DNA of 49,672 bases from a virus. Of the stretch, positions 2 to 15,833 are shown in pieces (position 1 is the first letter of the stretch; the number at the start of each line of letters is the position of its first letter). The position numbers were made by a program, and so were the translations under genes. The notes under the pieces are model-generated. The model was not told where the DNA came from. It did not search any database and saw only the letters and a program-made list of their open reading frames with translations. The stretch is from positions 1 to 49,672 of the IMG/VR virus record IMGVR_UViG_3300009788_000133; one strand, written 5' to 3'.

Positions 2-52
2 GGCTTTGAACGATTGTTGATTATGTTAAAAGATTTTGGGAGAATAAAATAA
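2..52 (+). CDS. C-terminal end of tail-tube protein (variant copy, partial)
   Basis: Sixteen codons and a TAA encode GFERLLIMLKDFGRIK. This matches the C-terminus of the 525-residue tail protein at 47760-49337 (GFEQLLIVLKDFGRIK). The stop overlaps the next ATG as TAATG, exactly as at the other end of the window. It is therefore the truncated 3' end of a second allele of that gene rather than an independent gene. Confidence 0.75.
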   Translation, partial: GFERLLIMLKDFGRIK

Positions 53-315
53 TGCCTAAAAAAATTGTTAAGCCAACGCCGAAGGAAAAAGCAGAAATCG
101 ACAGGCGTATGCTAAAGAAGTACGGACCCAAACGCATTTATAAGGAAAAAGGGAGCTGGGTTACTAAACTTAAAAGCGATGTAAAGGCTTACTTCAAGAA
201 GGAGAAGAAGAAAAAGAAGAAGAAACACGATACTGCCAGGACGAGTGCTGTTGAAGCCCGACTAAGACAGAGTGGCATGACAGAACAAGAAATTAAACGC
301 TTGAGAGGAAAGTAA
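52..315 (+). CDS. Small lysine-rich virion-operon protein (copy 1)
   Basis: 87 residues, extremely basic, with an uninterrupted lysine run near residue 50-58. It is an allele of the protein at 49337-49600; the N-terminal half varies and the C-terminal half is conserved. A shorter protein at 38756-38953 shares its core (SW..KLK..VK.YF..E) and its ending (G[ML][ST][ED].[ED]IKR[LM]), so this is a small paralogous family inside the phage. Start and stop overlap both neighbours (TAATG), implying translational coupling within the tail operon. The charge suggests nucleic-acid contact inside the head or tail, but this is inference; no known domain was recognised. Confidence 0.75.
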   Translation: MPKKIVKPTPKEKAEIDRRMLKKYGPKRIYKEKGSWVTKLKSDVKAYFKKEKKKKKKKHDTARTSAVEARLRQSGMTEQEIKRLRGK

Positions 316-12146: not shown

Positions 12147-12401
12147 TCAACGCCTAGTTAAGTCTTTAATTTTTGAGTCAGACATCTTAACGCCGTGCTT
12201 ATAGTTTGAAACTATGTAAGGCCAGTTGCGAATGTTGAAAAATTTTAACACTACTCTATTCAAGTCAACATCACATTTTTCACAGATACCAAGGTGCATC
12301 TTGTTCAATGAGCATATCTGCCATTGTTGAGTGGACGGCTGACCGCAACCAGCACACGGAACTCTCTTTATCCCTTCTTTGGAGTATTGCTTACTTCTCA
12401 T
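12147..12401 (-). CDS. Small zinc-finger protein
   Basis: 84 residues with two CxxC-type knuckles (CAGC near 16-19, C-E-K-C near 40-43) and a basic C-terminus. The start lies at the TAATG overlap with the primase-helicase gene, with GAAAGGATTAAATA in front. Likely a phage zinc protein acting on nucleic acid or protein partners; exact role unknown. Confidence 0.55.
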   Translation of the reverse strand: MRSKQYSKEGIKRVPCAGCGQPSTQQWQICSLNKMHLGICEKCDVDLNRVVLKFFNIRNWPYIVSNYKHGVKMSDSKIKDLTRR

Positions 12402-14695
12402 TATTTAATCCTTTCTACGTTAAGATATTCTGTATAAACCCAGTCTGCAAGCTGGACGCCTTCATATATCCTGTGTCGTTTGTTTCCAAGTCTGACTCTG
12501 GTGGTAGTGGCTGACGGACACGCTGCTGTAAACCACCTGCCGAACTGCTGCTTGACACTGGGATGACGGCCACTGTTCTTGCACCACACTACCCACGCCT
12601 CATAGAGTTGGTCAACAATAACATAGTATTTATCGCCCGGAGGTGGCAACTCACAGCAATCAGCGATGAACGCAGACACTGGTGTAGTCAACTCTCTGAG
12701 TTGCTTAATCAGTGGCCTTGCTGTGGCTGGCATCACAAACTTCTTGGCAAGTCTGAGGTCTTTCAGCCCTGCCAGAGCAAAGTTAATCAGCTTCCCAGCT
12801 TCAGCCTCTTTCCGTAACCTGAGTTTCAATCCAAGGTCTTCCCTGCCAACATAGCTGTTGCCAAAATACAGCACGTTGAGCCGTGGTTCCAGAGCGTTGG
12901 CCTGATCAGGAACATTTGGCAAGTCGTTCATTGCAACAGTGAACCTGCATGTGAGAAAAACTTGGGGGAGATAGGGTAAATACATTCGTCTGACCCCAAC
13001 GGGGTCGTTCCCAACAACTTGAAGTATCTTCTCCAATGCCGCAGCAGCTTGCTTCTCGCGGGGCACCTTCGCATCGCCGAGCATAACAGAGAGTTTCCCG
13101 ATGAGTGGATGGTAGCCGAATTCTGTACACAATGTCTGAAACGATGTTGACACACATTGTTTACTACCAAGCATAGCGGCAAGCGTGTTAAGGACCGTAC
13201 CTTTGCCGGATCTGGGGCGTCCCGTACATAGCAGCATTTTTTCAAAGGACATGTCAGGCACGCAATTGTAGCCGAACCACTGTCTAAGTAACTTGATTCT
13301 GTCGTTTTCTTTTCCATCGAAAATCTCTGCAATAAAGTCATCCCAAACTTGTGAATGGGCATCTTCATCAAAATCATAAGGTAATATATTATAGCTAAAG
13401 AGTGCTGGCGTAGGATCGTGGAACTTAATCCTGCCTCGCACATATTCGTTGATGTCCAGTATGCCGTTCCTGAAAGCCACAAGGTCTCTTGGTTCAGGAC
13501 AGCCTTTGTCTTTCAGCCACACTGGTGGTTCTACGCTGATGGTACACCAGTCACTGAGAGCATCAATGATGTCACTGACCTTTGCACGCGTCGGTTCATA
13601 AGGTACTATCTTGACGTCACCCTTTGCAGTTTCTTTCGGGAAAGTTTTCCCATTAAGGAAATTATAAACCTGTCCTCTAAATTCTTCTCTATCACAAATA
13701 TCGTAGTGACCGTCTGTGTATTGTAACCATTGTCCGTGATAGCACCTCACTGTCGGCAATCCGTCACTAGTCTTCTCCCTCTCAAGCCAGGTCTTAGCAA
13801 TGTCATAGGCTACGTGACTGGGAAGAACACTGGGATCAGCAGACGAATCACCGTACTCACCCACCCATTCGAGGAAAGCTTGCTGTGTTAGGCCAACCTG
13901 ATTCTTCCATTGACGTAAGTCTTTGAACTGCTTCGGTGGCAGTACCTTGGTAACTCTTGGACAGACTGGTGACAATGCCAAGTGTGCAGATTCCATGCCA
14001 GTGACGCCAACACCGGCATCATTGTCGCCTACTACTATTACTCCTCGTCCTCGAAGCAGGAACGGTAGACCTGACATACCACCTTCGGCTGACGGCCTAC
14101 CAACCGCGACAAAACCCAGGTCCATAGCCGCCGCAGTATCCGTCGCCCCCTCGACAACAATGATAGGGAGGTGGCTTTCCGGCAGGGTGTTTTGAGGCAT
14201 GTTGCCGACATTTCCTTCTGGTCTAAGAATATGGAGATGTCCCAAGAGTAGTGGCTTGACAGATCCCTCGGATATATGCACACACACAGCGGCTGCTGGG
14301 TTGGAGGGATCTCTAGCAGCAACGAGACATCCATCCTGCTTTCCACAAACTGGACAGGCCAAACCCGTCTCGACTCCGACCCTGTCCCAATTATGTTTTC
14401 CTGATTCATACTGTTCTCCCTTACCGTTCGAGCACACCTCATGTATTAGACCACGCTTTGAACCTTTGATCATCAGCTTACCATCAAGGTGCCGGACACT
14501 TATGCCTGTAACTTCACCATTCTCACGTTCTGGGAAAGTGAAAGCACGAGCCGCGTATGTGGGGTGATAGCCGATGCCCAATCTGATCAAGGAATCTGTA
14601 GAGACTCCAAGATCATTCGCTAGGACATCGACCATCGCCTTAGTAACATTCGATGAAAGGATTTTAGCTAACTCAGTGAAGTTTTGCTTTGCCAA
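12401..14695 (-). CDS. DNA primase-helicase (Toprim + SF3/D5-type)
   Basis: 764 residues. A zinc-binding part lies near residues 114-138 (C114, C117, C123, C138). Next comes a Toprim-like domain (IIVVEGATDTAAAM, 178-191, and VVGDNDAG, 221-228), a D5-N-like linker, and an SF3-type ATPase with Walker A at 492-500 (GRPRSGKGT) and a sensor-like FTVAMNDLP near 585-593. This is the phage/plasmid primase-helicase plan: it would prime and unwind DNA at the replication fork together with the family A polymerase. The C-terminal tail VERIK doubles as the Shine-Dalgarno region of the next gene. ATG start directly after the 45-residue gene upstream. Confidence 0.85.
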   Translation of the reverse strand: MAKQNFTELAKILSSNVTKAMVDVLANDLGVSTDSLIRLGIGYHPTYAARAFTFPERENGEVTGISVRHLDGKLMIKGSKRGLIHEVCSNGKGEQYESGKHNWDRVGVETGLACPVCGKQDGCLVAARDPSNPAAAVCVHISEGSVKPLLLGHLHILRPEGNVGNMPQNTLPESHLPIIVVEGATDTAAAMDLGFVAVGRPSAEGGMSGLPFLLRGRGVIVVGDNDAGVGVTGMESAHLALSPVCPRVTKVLPPKQFKDLRQWKNQVGLTQQAFLEWVGEYGDSSADPSVLPSHVAYDIAKTWLEREKTSDGLPTVRCYHGQWLQYTDGHYDICDREEFRGQVYNFLNGKTFPKETAKGDVKIVPYEPTRAKVSDIIDALSDWCTISVEPPVWLKDKGCPEPRDLVAFRNGILDINEYVRGRIKFHDPTPALFSYNILPYDFDEDAHSQVWDDFIAEIFDGKENDRIKLLRQWFGYNCVPDMSFEKMLLCTGRPRSGKGTVLNTLAAMLGSKQCVSTSFQTLCTEFGYHPLIGKLSVMLGDAKVPREKQAAAALEKILQVVGNDPVGVRRMYLPYLPQVFLTCRFTVAMNDLPNVPDQANALEPRLNVLYFGNSYVGREDLGLKLRLRKEAEAGKLINFALAGLKDLRLAKKFVMPATARPLIKQLRELTTPVSAFIADCCELPPPGDKYYVIVDQLYEAWVVWCKNSGRHPSVKQQFGRWFTAACPSATTTRVRLGNKRHRIYEGVQLADWVYTEYLNVERIK

Positions 14696-14697
14696 GT

Positions 14698-14835
14698 TTA
14701 CTCTCCTAGAAATTCTTCAATTGCAGCACCGAGTTCTTGTGCAGACTCTACCAATTCAGTGCCCTCTGCACGTTGAGCAAAATTCAAGGCCCACTGCAAA
14801 AGTTCTTCAGCTTTTTCAAGCTTGCTTGCAAACAT
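14698..14835 (-). CDS. Small acidic helical protein
   Basis: 45 residues, start at MFASKLEKAEELL, with SD GGAAAGGAAGA placed 6-8 bases upstream and preceded by TTTTTAACA. A longer in-frame version starting at 14916 would overlap the tRNA and is rejected. Amphipathic helices, no cysteines, acidic. It lies between the tRNA and the primase-helicase, two bases upstream of the latter. Function unknown. Confidence 0.6.
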   Translation of the reverse strand: MFASKLEKAEELLQWALNFAQRAEGTELVESAQELGAAIEEFLGE

Positions 14836-14859: not shown

Positions 14860-14931
14860 GGTGACTGATGGAACTCGAATCCATACTCCCAGCATCACAG
14901 CCTGGTGTGCTACCAATTACACCACAGTCAC
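14860..14931 (-). tRNA. tRNA-His (GTG)
   Basis: 72-base cloverleaf on the minus strand. The acceptor stem GTGACTG/CAGTCAC has seven perfect pairs. The D stem GTGT/GCAC encloses AATTGGTA. The anticodon stem CCAGG/GCTGG has a G-G mismatch at 31-39 and loop CTGTGAT, giving anticodon GTG. The T arm ATGGA-TTCGAGT-TCCAT is perfect. Discriminator C73 is the hallmark of tRNA-His, but the encoded -1 base is T rather than G. It lies between two early genes and probably supplements His decoding. Confidence 0.85.
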
Positions 14932-14932
14932 A

Positions 14933-14966
14933 GGGCGTAAGTCGGGAATCGAACCCACATTACGCC
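14933..14966 (-). ncRNA. tRNA-like minihelix: acceptor stem plus T arm only
   Basis: Directly upstream of tRNA-His on the same strand. GGCGTAA pairs with TTACGCC (7 bp). Inside it lies a T arm with stem GGG/CCC extended by one wobble pair and the canonical T loop TTCGATT. D arm, anticodon arm and variable loop (positions 8-48 of a tRNA) are absent. Read in tRNA numbering, the outer G-C pair equals G-1:C73, the tRNA-His identity pair. Only one base separates it from tRNA-His. It could be a degenerate tRNA, or a processing signal: acceptor plus T arm is the minimal RNase P substrate. Confidence 0.65.
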
Positions 14967-14981
14967 AATTTAAGCCTTTAA

Positions 14982-15833
14982 TTAAATTTTGGACTGTACC
15001 TCTTCTAGCACAATCACTTCAACCTGATACCACTGTTCTTCCGTGAGAACATCAGGTTCATTCTGACCGCTTACCTCTACGATAGCTGCTAACCATGCAT
15101 CAGCTTGCATCTTCTCAGACACGTGTGGCAGTCTAACTTCGTTGACATTTTCCCATGCAGCTTTCTTGGAGCGTTTGCCTTCCCTGAGATCCGGTAGAAC
15201 ACCCTCAGCCTCTGGCATTGCTGGTGCCTCTGGAGCAGCAGGAGCAGCAGGAGCAGCAGGTCTGTCAACCTTCTTAACTGGACCCTTCTTCTGGGTAGAC
15301 TTCTTGCCCTTTGCAGTTACCTTGCCAGGAGATGTGGGTTTCGTGGTTGGCTTTCCTGGTGCTGTAGCAGGTGCAGTTTTTGTCATCTGTGATTTGAATC
15401 TGGCATCAAGAGCCTTCATCTCATCAGCATCCAGTGTCCTAATAGCACTCCCCGGCGTGGCATCGTACTCGTCTACCCACTCTACTTGCAGCGTGTCTTT
15501 TCCATCGTAGGTGTTCCATGCCACGCGGAACTGGATACCAGTTTCAGATAGGTCCATCTCATTTAGACTCGCAAACGACAAACCTTCCCACCCTGTAATT
15601 TTCTTGACCTGTGTGCAAGTAAGGGTCTCACCCTTACCACCGAACAGGCACAGGTAGGCTATGATGCCATTCAATTCTACGTCAGTCCAGTCTACCCACA
15701 CTTTTTCTTCCTCATCCCAGATTTCAGTACCCCTTAATTCGGCTACCCACTGAGGGAAGTCATTCTTTGACAAACTAACCGCGTGACTAACGATACTGCC
15801 GCGGAAAGTTGCCGGTCTGTCGATTGCATTCAT
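14982..15833 (-). CDS. Replication/recombination-associated protein with Ala/Pro/Lys linker
   Basis: 283 residues. A folded N-terminal domain (about 1-125, with Trp-rich segments such as WVDWTDVELNG) is followed by a Lys/Pro/Ala low-complexity linker (about 150-210, APAAPAAPEAPAMPEAEG) and a conserved-looking C-terminal segment (about 220-283) that ends acidic. The plan of folded domain, disordered linker and acidic tail, and its place beside the Sak4-like ATPase and primase, would suit a single-stranded-DNA-binding or partner protein. No family recognised. SD CAGGAG preceded by the TTTAA-type box. Confidence 0.55.
   Translation of the reverse strand: MNAIDRPATFRGSIVSHAVSLSKNDFPQWVAELRGTEIWDEEEKVWVDWTDVELNGIIAYLCLFGGKGETLTCTQVKKITGWEGLSFASLNEMDLSETGIQFRVAWNTYDGKDTLQVEWVDEYDATPGSAIRTLDADEMKALDARFKSQMTKTAPATAPGKPTTKPTSPGKVTAKGKKSTQKKGPVKKVDRPAAPAAPAAPEAPAMPEAEGVLPDLREGKRSKKAAWENVNEVRLPHVSEKMQADAWLAAIVEVSGQNEPDVLTEEQWYQVEVIVLEEVQSKI

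Follow-up and report, generated by a model that had tools for sequence, protein, structure and literature searches.

The element described here lies in a 49.7-kb virus contig, which was analyzed over its whole length of 49,672 nucleotides and is called the window below. The features of the locus are given with tRNA numbering for the parts of the element.

14982..15833, minus strand: upstream gene, 283 aa, no PHROG or Pfam match; its stop codon is 15 nt ahead of the minihelix, and it neighbors the primase in relatives too
14934..14966, minus strand: tRNA-like minihelix, G-1 to C73, nt 8-48 absent (sequence, fold, strict scan, and match to tRNA-His parents)
14959..14966, minus strand: acceptor 5' strand GGCGTAAT (G-1, 1-7), read directly; identical to G-1..U7 of tRNA-His in L034-L041
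14942..14958, minus strand: T arm GTGGG-TTCGATT-CCCGA (49-65), read directly; invariant T loop TTCRANY
14934..14941, minus strand: acceptor 3' strand CTTACGC (66-72) and discriminator C73, read directly
14932..14933, minus strand: CU linker from minihelix C73 to tRNA-His G1, the same as in seven other tRNA-X–CU–tRNA-His tandems
14860..14931, minus strand: intact tRNA-His(GUG) with U at -1 and C73, no CCA encoded (ARAGORN; Rfam RF00005, 58.3 bits)
14698..14835, minus strand: 45-aa ORF lying between tRNA-His and the primase, without a family match
12401..14695, minus strand: DNA primase/helicase, located downstream and oriented alike (PHROG 6088, E 3e-51)

Genomic context

DNA and protein searches of the collections found no close relatives of the contig, and the minihelix pattern with the exact acceptor had no match in IMG/VR. 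In the nearest relatives, whose polymerase and primase are 41-49% identical, the order of the 283-aa gene and the primase is kept. These relatives carry neither a tRNA nor a minihelix, and other sequence or nothing stands between the two genes. Other strongly folded RNAs were observed at the intergenic position upstream of the primase in L006 (13518-13613, z = -2.6), L008 (17570-17695, z = -2.6), and L007 (16653-16705, z = -6.4). A T run follows these RNAs, ahead of either the primase or an inserted gene. The folds in L006 and L008 beat their shuffles, yet neither RNA has any tRNA feature.

Sequence and fold of the minihelix

Direct reading of the 34 nt from 14966 to 14933 on the minus strand gives GGCGTAATGTGGGTTCGATTCCCGACTTACGCCC, followed by T at 14932. 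The minihelix itself comprises 33 nt (14966 to 14934) and reads GGCGTAAT-GTGGG-TTCGATT-CCCGA-CTTACGC-C; the D arm, anticodon arm, and variable region are all absent between the acceptor 5' strand and the T arm. The initial annotation had described a 7-bp stem (GGCGTAA/TTACGCC) and a TTCGATT loop at this place, and both are exact in the sequence, with a clear fold.

The acceptor stem stacked on the T arm has a minimum free energy (MFE) of -15.3 kcal/mol (z = -3.6), which none of 200 shuffles equaled. Within the acceptor, U7·C66 is mismatched and the other seven pairs, including G-1:C73, are Watson-Crick; the T stem contains a G49·A65 mismatch and a U50·G64 wobble. In the MFE fold, a bulged U and a bulged G replace the U7·C66 and G49·A65 mismatches at the junction. 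The outer seven and inner three pairs are firm in both versions and are separated by two bulges or by two mismatched layers. A perfect His minihelix would reach -24.0 kcal/mol, so that the helix as found is 8.7 kcal/mol weaker, and the junction mismatches mildly suggest relaxed constraint and hence a relic. CCA is encoded by neither the minihelix nor the intact tRNA-His; the 3' end of the minihelix as encoded is C73-C-U rather than RCC(A), and CCA would need to be added.

Chance origin and model scans

We scanned the window with a strict minihelix pattern, consisting of a 7-bp acceptor, a T stem, and a T-loop consensus with G53 and C61. The minihelix was the single site found, and 300 Markov-simulated windows gave no match. 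Under a looser T-loop rule, 25 matches at any position were obtained in 1200 simulated windows (about 0.02 per window), and the location within 2 nt of the window's only tRNA on the same strand multiplies this chance rate by roughly 1e-4. The probability that the minihelix at 14934-14966 arose by chance is negligible. A chance hairpin or an intrinsic terminator, for which nothing speaks beyond the element being a hairpin, has next to no probability in view of these simulations and of its place beside the only tRNA in the window. The terminator reading was rejected directly, since no T run follows the hairpin and the terminator scan was negative.

The Rfam tRNA covariance model RF00005, run on the window with E up to 10, scored only the neighboring tRNA-His and left the minihelix unscored. 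We also built a minihelix covariance model (R1) from 30 phage tRNAs whose middle part had been cut out, leaving the window's minihelix aside, and its best match in the window was the minihelix (19.6 bits, E 0.011). A general minihelix covariance model failed to distinguish minihelices from ordinary tRNA T arms.

Parentage of the minihelix

Two registers fit the minihelix, namely, a 7-bp acceptor followed by a discriminator C, or an eight-layer acceptor with G-1:C73. We looked for a parent in 84,980 genomes of bacteria and archaea, using the pattern GGCGTAAT-N35-65-GTTCGANTC-N3-6-TTACGCC, which allows both registers and non-His spacing. Only eight loci were found (L034-L041, in metagenome-assembled genomes of Bacilli, Tenericutes, and Clostridia), and all are intact tRNA-His genes with G-1:C73 and CCA, which supports the His-type reading of the minihelix. 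When nt 8-48 are removed from these eight tRNAs (G-1..U7 plus 49..73), 30 of 33 positions are identical to the minihelix, the differences being ACA→GAC at 64-66. Two independent tests by sequence comparison, these tRNA-His parents and the N73-CU-G1 linker described below, support the G-1:C73 register; the 7-bp G1:C72 reading is possible.

In the tRNA-His register, two earlier claims hold: the parent match and the CU linker agree with the loss of nt 8-48 as one block, and the eight parent loci together with the N73-CU-G1 linker agree with the outermost pair being G-1:C73 of tRNA-His. The initial annotation had also placed the element one base from the tRNA-His 5' end. The adjacency stands, and the gap from C73 (14934) to G1 (14931) is two bases, CU, instead of one. 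Its further suggestion of a relic of tRNA-His duplication survives as far as the tRNA-His identity is concerned, on the evidence of the parents and the slot. By eye, only 2/7 acceptor and 3/5 T-stem positions are identical to the neighboring tRNA-His, and with such a strong difference the minihelix is no recent copy of its neighbor.

No intact tRNA with the acceptor of the minihelix was found in IMG/VR viral contigs. Besides, no direct repeat is present at the deletion breakpoints when a Bacilli tRNA-His serves as a stand-in parent. In the phage tRNAs that carry it, none of them His, the 20-mer GTAATGTGGGTTCGATTCCC naturally forms part of the variable loop and T arm. A 5-nt direct repeat could thus have caused the loss of nt 9-48 if the variable loop of the parent was GTAAT. 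This route is a possibility only, because the tRNAs with GTAATGTGGGTTCGATTCCC are not His and the Bacilli tRNA-His lacks the repeat.

We observed tRNA-like genes of the form GTTGCTAATATTGG…CTTATAA…GTAATGTGGGTTCGATTCCC…CCA in L013, L015, L016, L018, L022, L025, L026, and L031, as well as in L011 (7930-8022). They resemble tRNA-Ile(UAU) with a long variable arm and are mostly missed by ARAGORN. In addition, phage tRNA arrays contain 3'-half tRNA relics, with a T arm lacking a paired 5' acceptor strand (L010, 7990-8030; L029 and L030, beside tRNA-Ala).

The core of an attP site usually consists of the T arm and the 3' acceptor strand of a tRNA gene, and in this respect the minihelix might be an attP that took its sequence from a host tRNA gene's 3' end. 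However, the minihelix also keeps the 5' acceptor strand, and no tyrosine integrase is encoded in the window. Nor does GGTTCGANTCCCGACTTACGCC occur in any of the 84,980 genomes, so that no identity to the 3' end of a host tRNA was seen; an attP is extremely improbable and was rejected.

Tandem slot upstream of tRNA-His

Among the loci fetched, phage tRNA-His genes form two classes, one with G at -1 and the other with, almost always, U at -1. Encoded G-1 is normally required by bacterial HisRS. Many phage tRNA-His genes lack an encoded G-1 and have U-1 and C73, as at 14932-14931 of the window and in L062, L075, L090, L099, L100, L010, L108-L110, L113, and L115-L118.

Seven other phages or viral contigs carry a tRNA-X–CU–tRNA-His unit of the U-1 type, with exactly CU between N73 and G1: Streptomyces phages Sham, Patelgo, and Stanimal, Mycobacterium phage Cosmo, and contigs L062, L075, and L100. 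X is in each case a complete tRNA (Tyr, Pro, Ser, and one without assignment). Loci of such tandems are L113, L116, L118, L075, L100, L010 (10660-10759), and L062 (6530-6588). In our table of 76 close tandem pairs, every 2-nt CU linker stands before a tRNA-His (5/5), a count that is biased because some loci were fetched by a query containing the junction; L062, L075, L100, and Stanimal were fetched otherwise. Two additional CU-linker tandems, in Stanimal and L062, were recognized by eye.

The window has all parts of this unit, that is, an upstream acceptor and T arm, N73, CU, and a U-1 tRNA-His, with the minihelix as X instead of a complete tRNA. The His register puts C73-CU-G1 at the junction, and thus the minihelix fills the place of the upstream tRNA in the tandem.

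A separate family of stand-alone minihelices

A recurrent minihelix, GGGGAGC-C-GGTGGG-TTCGAGT-CCCACT-GCTCCCC, was observed at the following sites in six viral contigs.

L069, 3112-3145, minus strand: minihelix with two compensatory stem pairs
L073, 4926-4959, minus strand: minihelix
L076, 6300-6333, minus strand: minihelix
L079, 3760-3793, plus strand: minihelix
L092, 6273-6306, plus strand: minihelix
L094, 257-290, plus strand: minihelix

A variable domain with ACGAGG and CCTCGT at its ends precedes it, and the downstream genes differ. No tRNA was found nearby, and there was no Rfam match and no match in the phages collection. It may represent a phage RNA family not described so far. Although distinct from the window's element, it shows that an acceptor/T-arm helix can be conserved without being part of a tRNA. 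The overall architecture is alike, with an acceptor of about 7 bp, an unpaired pyrimidine, and a T arm. It is nevertheless very improbable that the window's minihelix belongs to such a class: its stem sequences are unrelated, a tRNA abuts it, and no ACGAGG…CCTCGT domain lies upstream of 14966, whereas the six-contig family has that domain and no neighboring tRNA.

Origin and possible function of the minihelix

We propose that the minihelix is probably a His-type tRNA gene in the X slot that underwent one internal deletion, and that it is now a hairpin left by tRNA-His maturation. The ancestral gene would have encoded a tRNA whose acceptor was of the His type (G-1:C73) and would have stood first in a tandem tRNA-X–CU–tRNA-His. 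A single internal deletion would have removed nt 8-48 (the D arm, anticodon arm, and variable region), leaving the acceptor stem and T arm and abolishing the ability to decode. The 283-aa gene, the minihelix, tRNA-His, the small ORF, and the primase are presumably cotranscribed, and RNase P would cut at U-1/G1 and mature tRNA-His. The upstream mRNA would then end in the minihelix as its 3'-terminal hairpin, or the minihelix would be released at G-1 as a by-product of about 33-35 nt.

The origin as a relic is favored by the predicted weakening of the helix from -24.0 to -15.3 kcal/mol. By analogy, other tRNA debris in phage arrays, such as the 3' half in Stanimal, also speaks for it, and the sequence comparisons, in which the element was conserved in no relative examined, point the same way. 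Against it, the T loop is complete and only one of the eight acceptor pairs has been lost. The acceptor stem and T arm are the part recognized by RNase P, RNase Z, the CCA-adding enzyme, and HisRS, and a deletion with random endpoints would rarely spare exactly this part. The missing breakpoint repeat with the Bacilli stand-in and the missing intact parent in viral contigs also seem to disfavor a relic, as do the six contigs with a conserved stand-alone minihelix, which imply that minihelix elements can be kept by selection.

Since the spared part is bound by RNase P and can be charged by HisRS when G-1:C73 is present, it is possible that a function was kept. We consider it doubtful, though conceivable, that a His minihelix (G-1:C73) is under selection here, either as a processing module for tRNA-His or as a chargeable or decoy RNA engaging HisRS or an acceptor-stem-reading defense enzyme.

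As a selected processing element, the minihelix would substitute for a tRNA in the upstream slot: it would direct RNase P and 3' processing enzymes to the proper cut in the polycistronic transcript, at the 5' end of tRNA-His, and/or leave a stable 3' hairpin on the mRNA of the 283-aa gene. RNase P binds the acceptor and T stem, and minihelices are cleaved in vitro (PMC11221534). Moreover, the N73-CU-G1 junction is common to the seven tandems, and tRNA-His has U at -1, a base with which residue A248 of RNase P RNA is able to pair (PMC11221534). We regard this role as unlikely, however, because the junction mismatches would disturb coaxial stacking, an effect known to lower RNase P cleavage (PMC11221534), and because U-1 phage tRNA-His genes occur without an abutting tRNA in Aeh1, CHI14, KIT03, and BRock, implying that an upstream element is not generally required.

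Alternatively, the released RNA might gain CCA and be charged by HisRS, or it might occupy a reader of acceptor stems, such as HisRS, the CCA-adding enzyme, or a toxSAS-type defense toxin. HisRS charges 13-bp minihelices and 8-bp microhelices with G-1:C73 (PMC9976931), and the toxSAS FaRel2 recognizes a tRNA minihelix (PMC11559606); furthermore, G-1:C73 is present in the minihelix and missing from the neighboring tRNA-His. The helix is weakened and CCA is not encoded, however, and a functional His minihelix or decoy is, in our view, quite improbable. Taken together, the element is real, of the tRNA-His type, and located in a tandem tRNA slot; it is probably a relic and possibly kept for processing.

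Comparison with known systems

Minihelices are laboratory substrates, in vitro constructs, and models of ancestral tRNA. Our literature search, which was not exhaustive, found no report of a minihelix encoded beside a tRNA in a phage. Nor was a second well-paired minihelix abutting a tRNA seen in viral and phage loci totaling 0.9 Mb, in which 472 tRNAs were called and many of which had been picked for matching T arms; this survey also brought up the six contigs with the stand-alone minihelix. The window hairpin may be one of few natural copies of the in vitro minihelix.

The 13-bp tRNA-His minihelices and 8-bp microhelices carrying G-1:C73 that serve as HisRS substrates (PMC9976931) share with the phage element an acceptor on a T arm, 13 base-pair layers from G-1:C73, and a T loop. 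Unlike these synthetic RNAs, the phage minihelix is genome encoded, has two mismatched layers, and lacks CCA. RNase P binding requires neither the D arm nor the anticodon arm, and minihelix substrates are cleaved (PMC11221534). They have the same stacked acceptor and T stems and T loop, whereas the phage minihelix ends in C73-CU rather than RCCA and contains internal mismatches. The Bacillus cereus pseudo-tRNA "tRNA-Other" (PMC3399842) is likewise a tRNA-like gene not working in translation; it differs from the 33-nt phage minihelix in being a chromosomal gene with a reported phenotype.

The relics in phage tRNA arrays, such as the 3' half in Stanimal, are also recognizable non-decoding tRNA segments beside intact tRNAs, but the window minihelix keeps both acceptor strands and the T arm, folded as a unit. 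If it is expressed, this 33-nt element would allow recognition of a bare acceptor/T-arm helix by RNase P, the CCA-adding enzyme, and HisRS to be tested in vivo, and even as a relic it would illustrate the decay of tandem phage tRNA units. The recurrent tRNA-X–CU–tRNA-His unit came to light through its study, as did a second family of conserved stand-alone minihelices in other viruses. With the tandems of Sham, Patelgo, Cosmo, Stanimal, L062, L075, and L100, the window shares the slot, the CU linker, and the U-1 tRNA-His; X is a full tRNA there and a minihelix with a His-type acceptor here.
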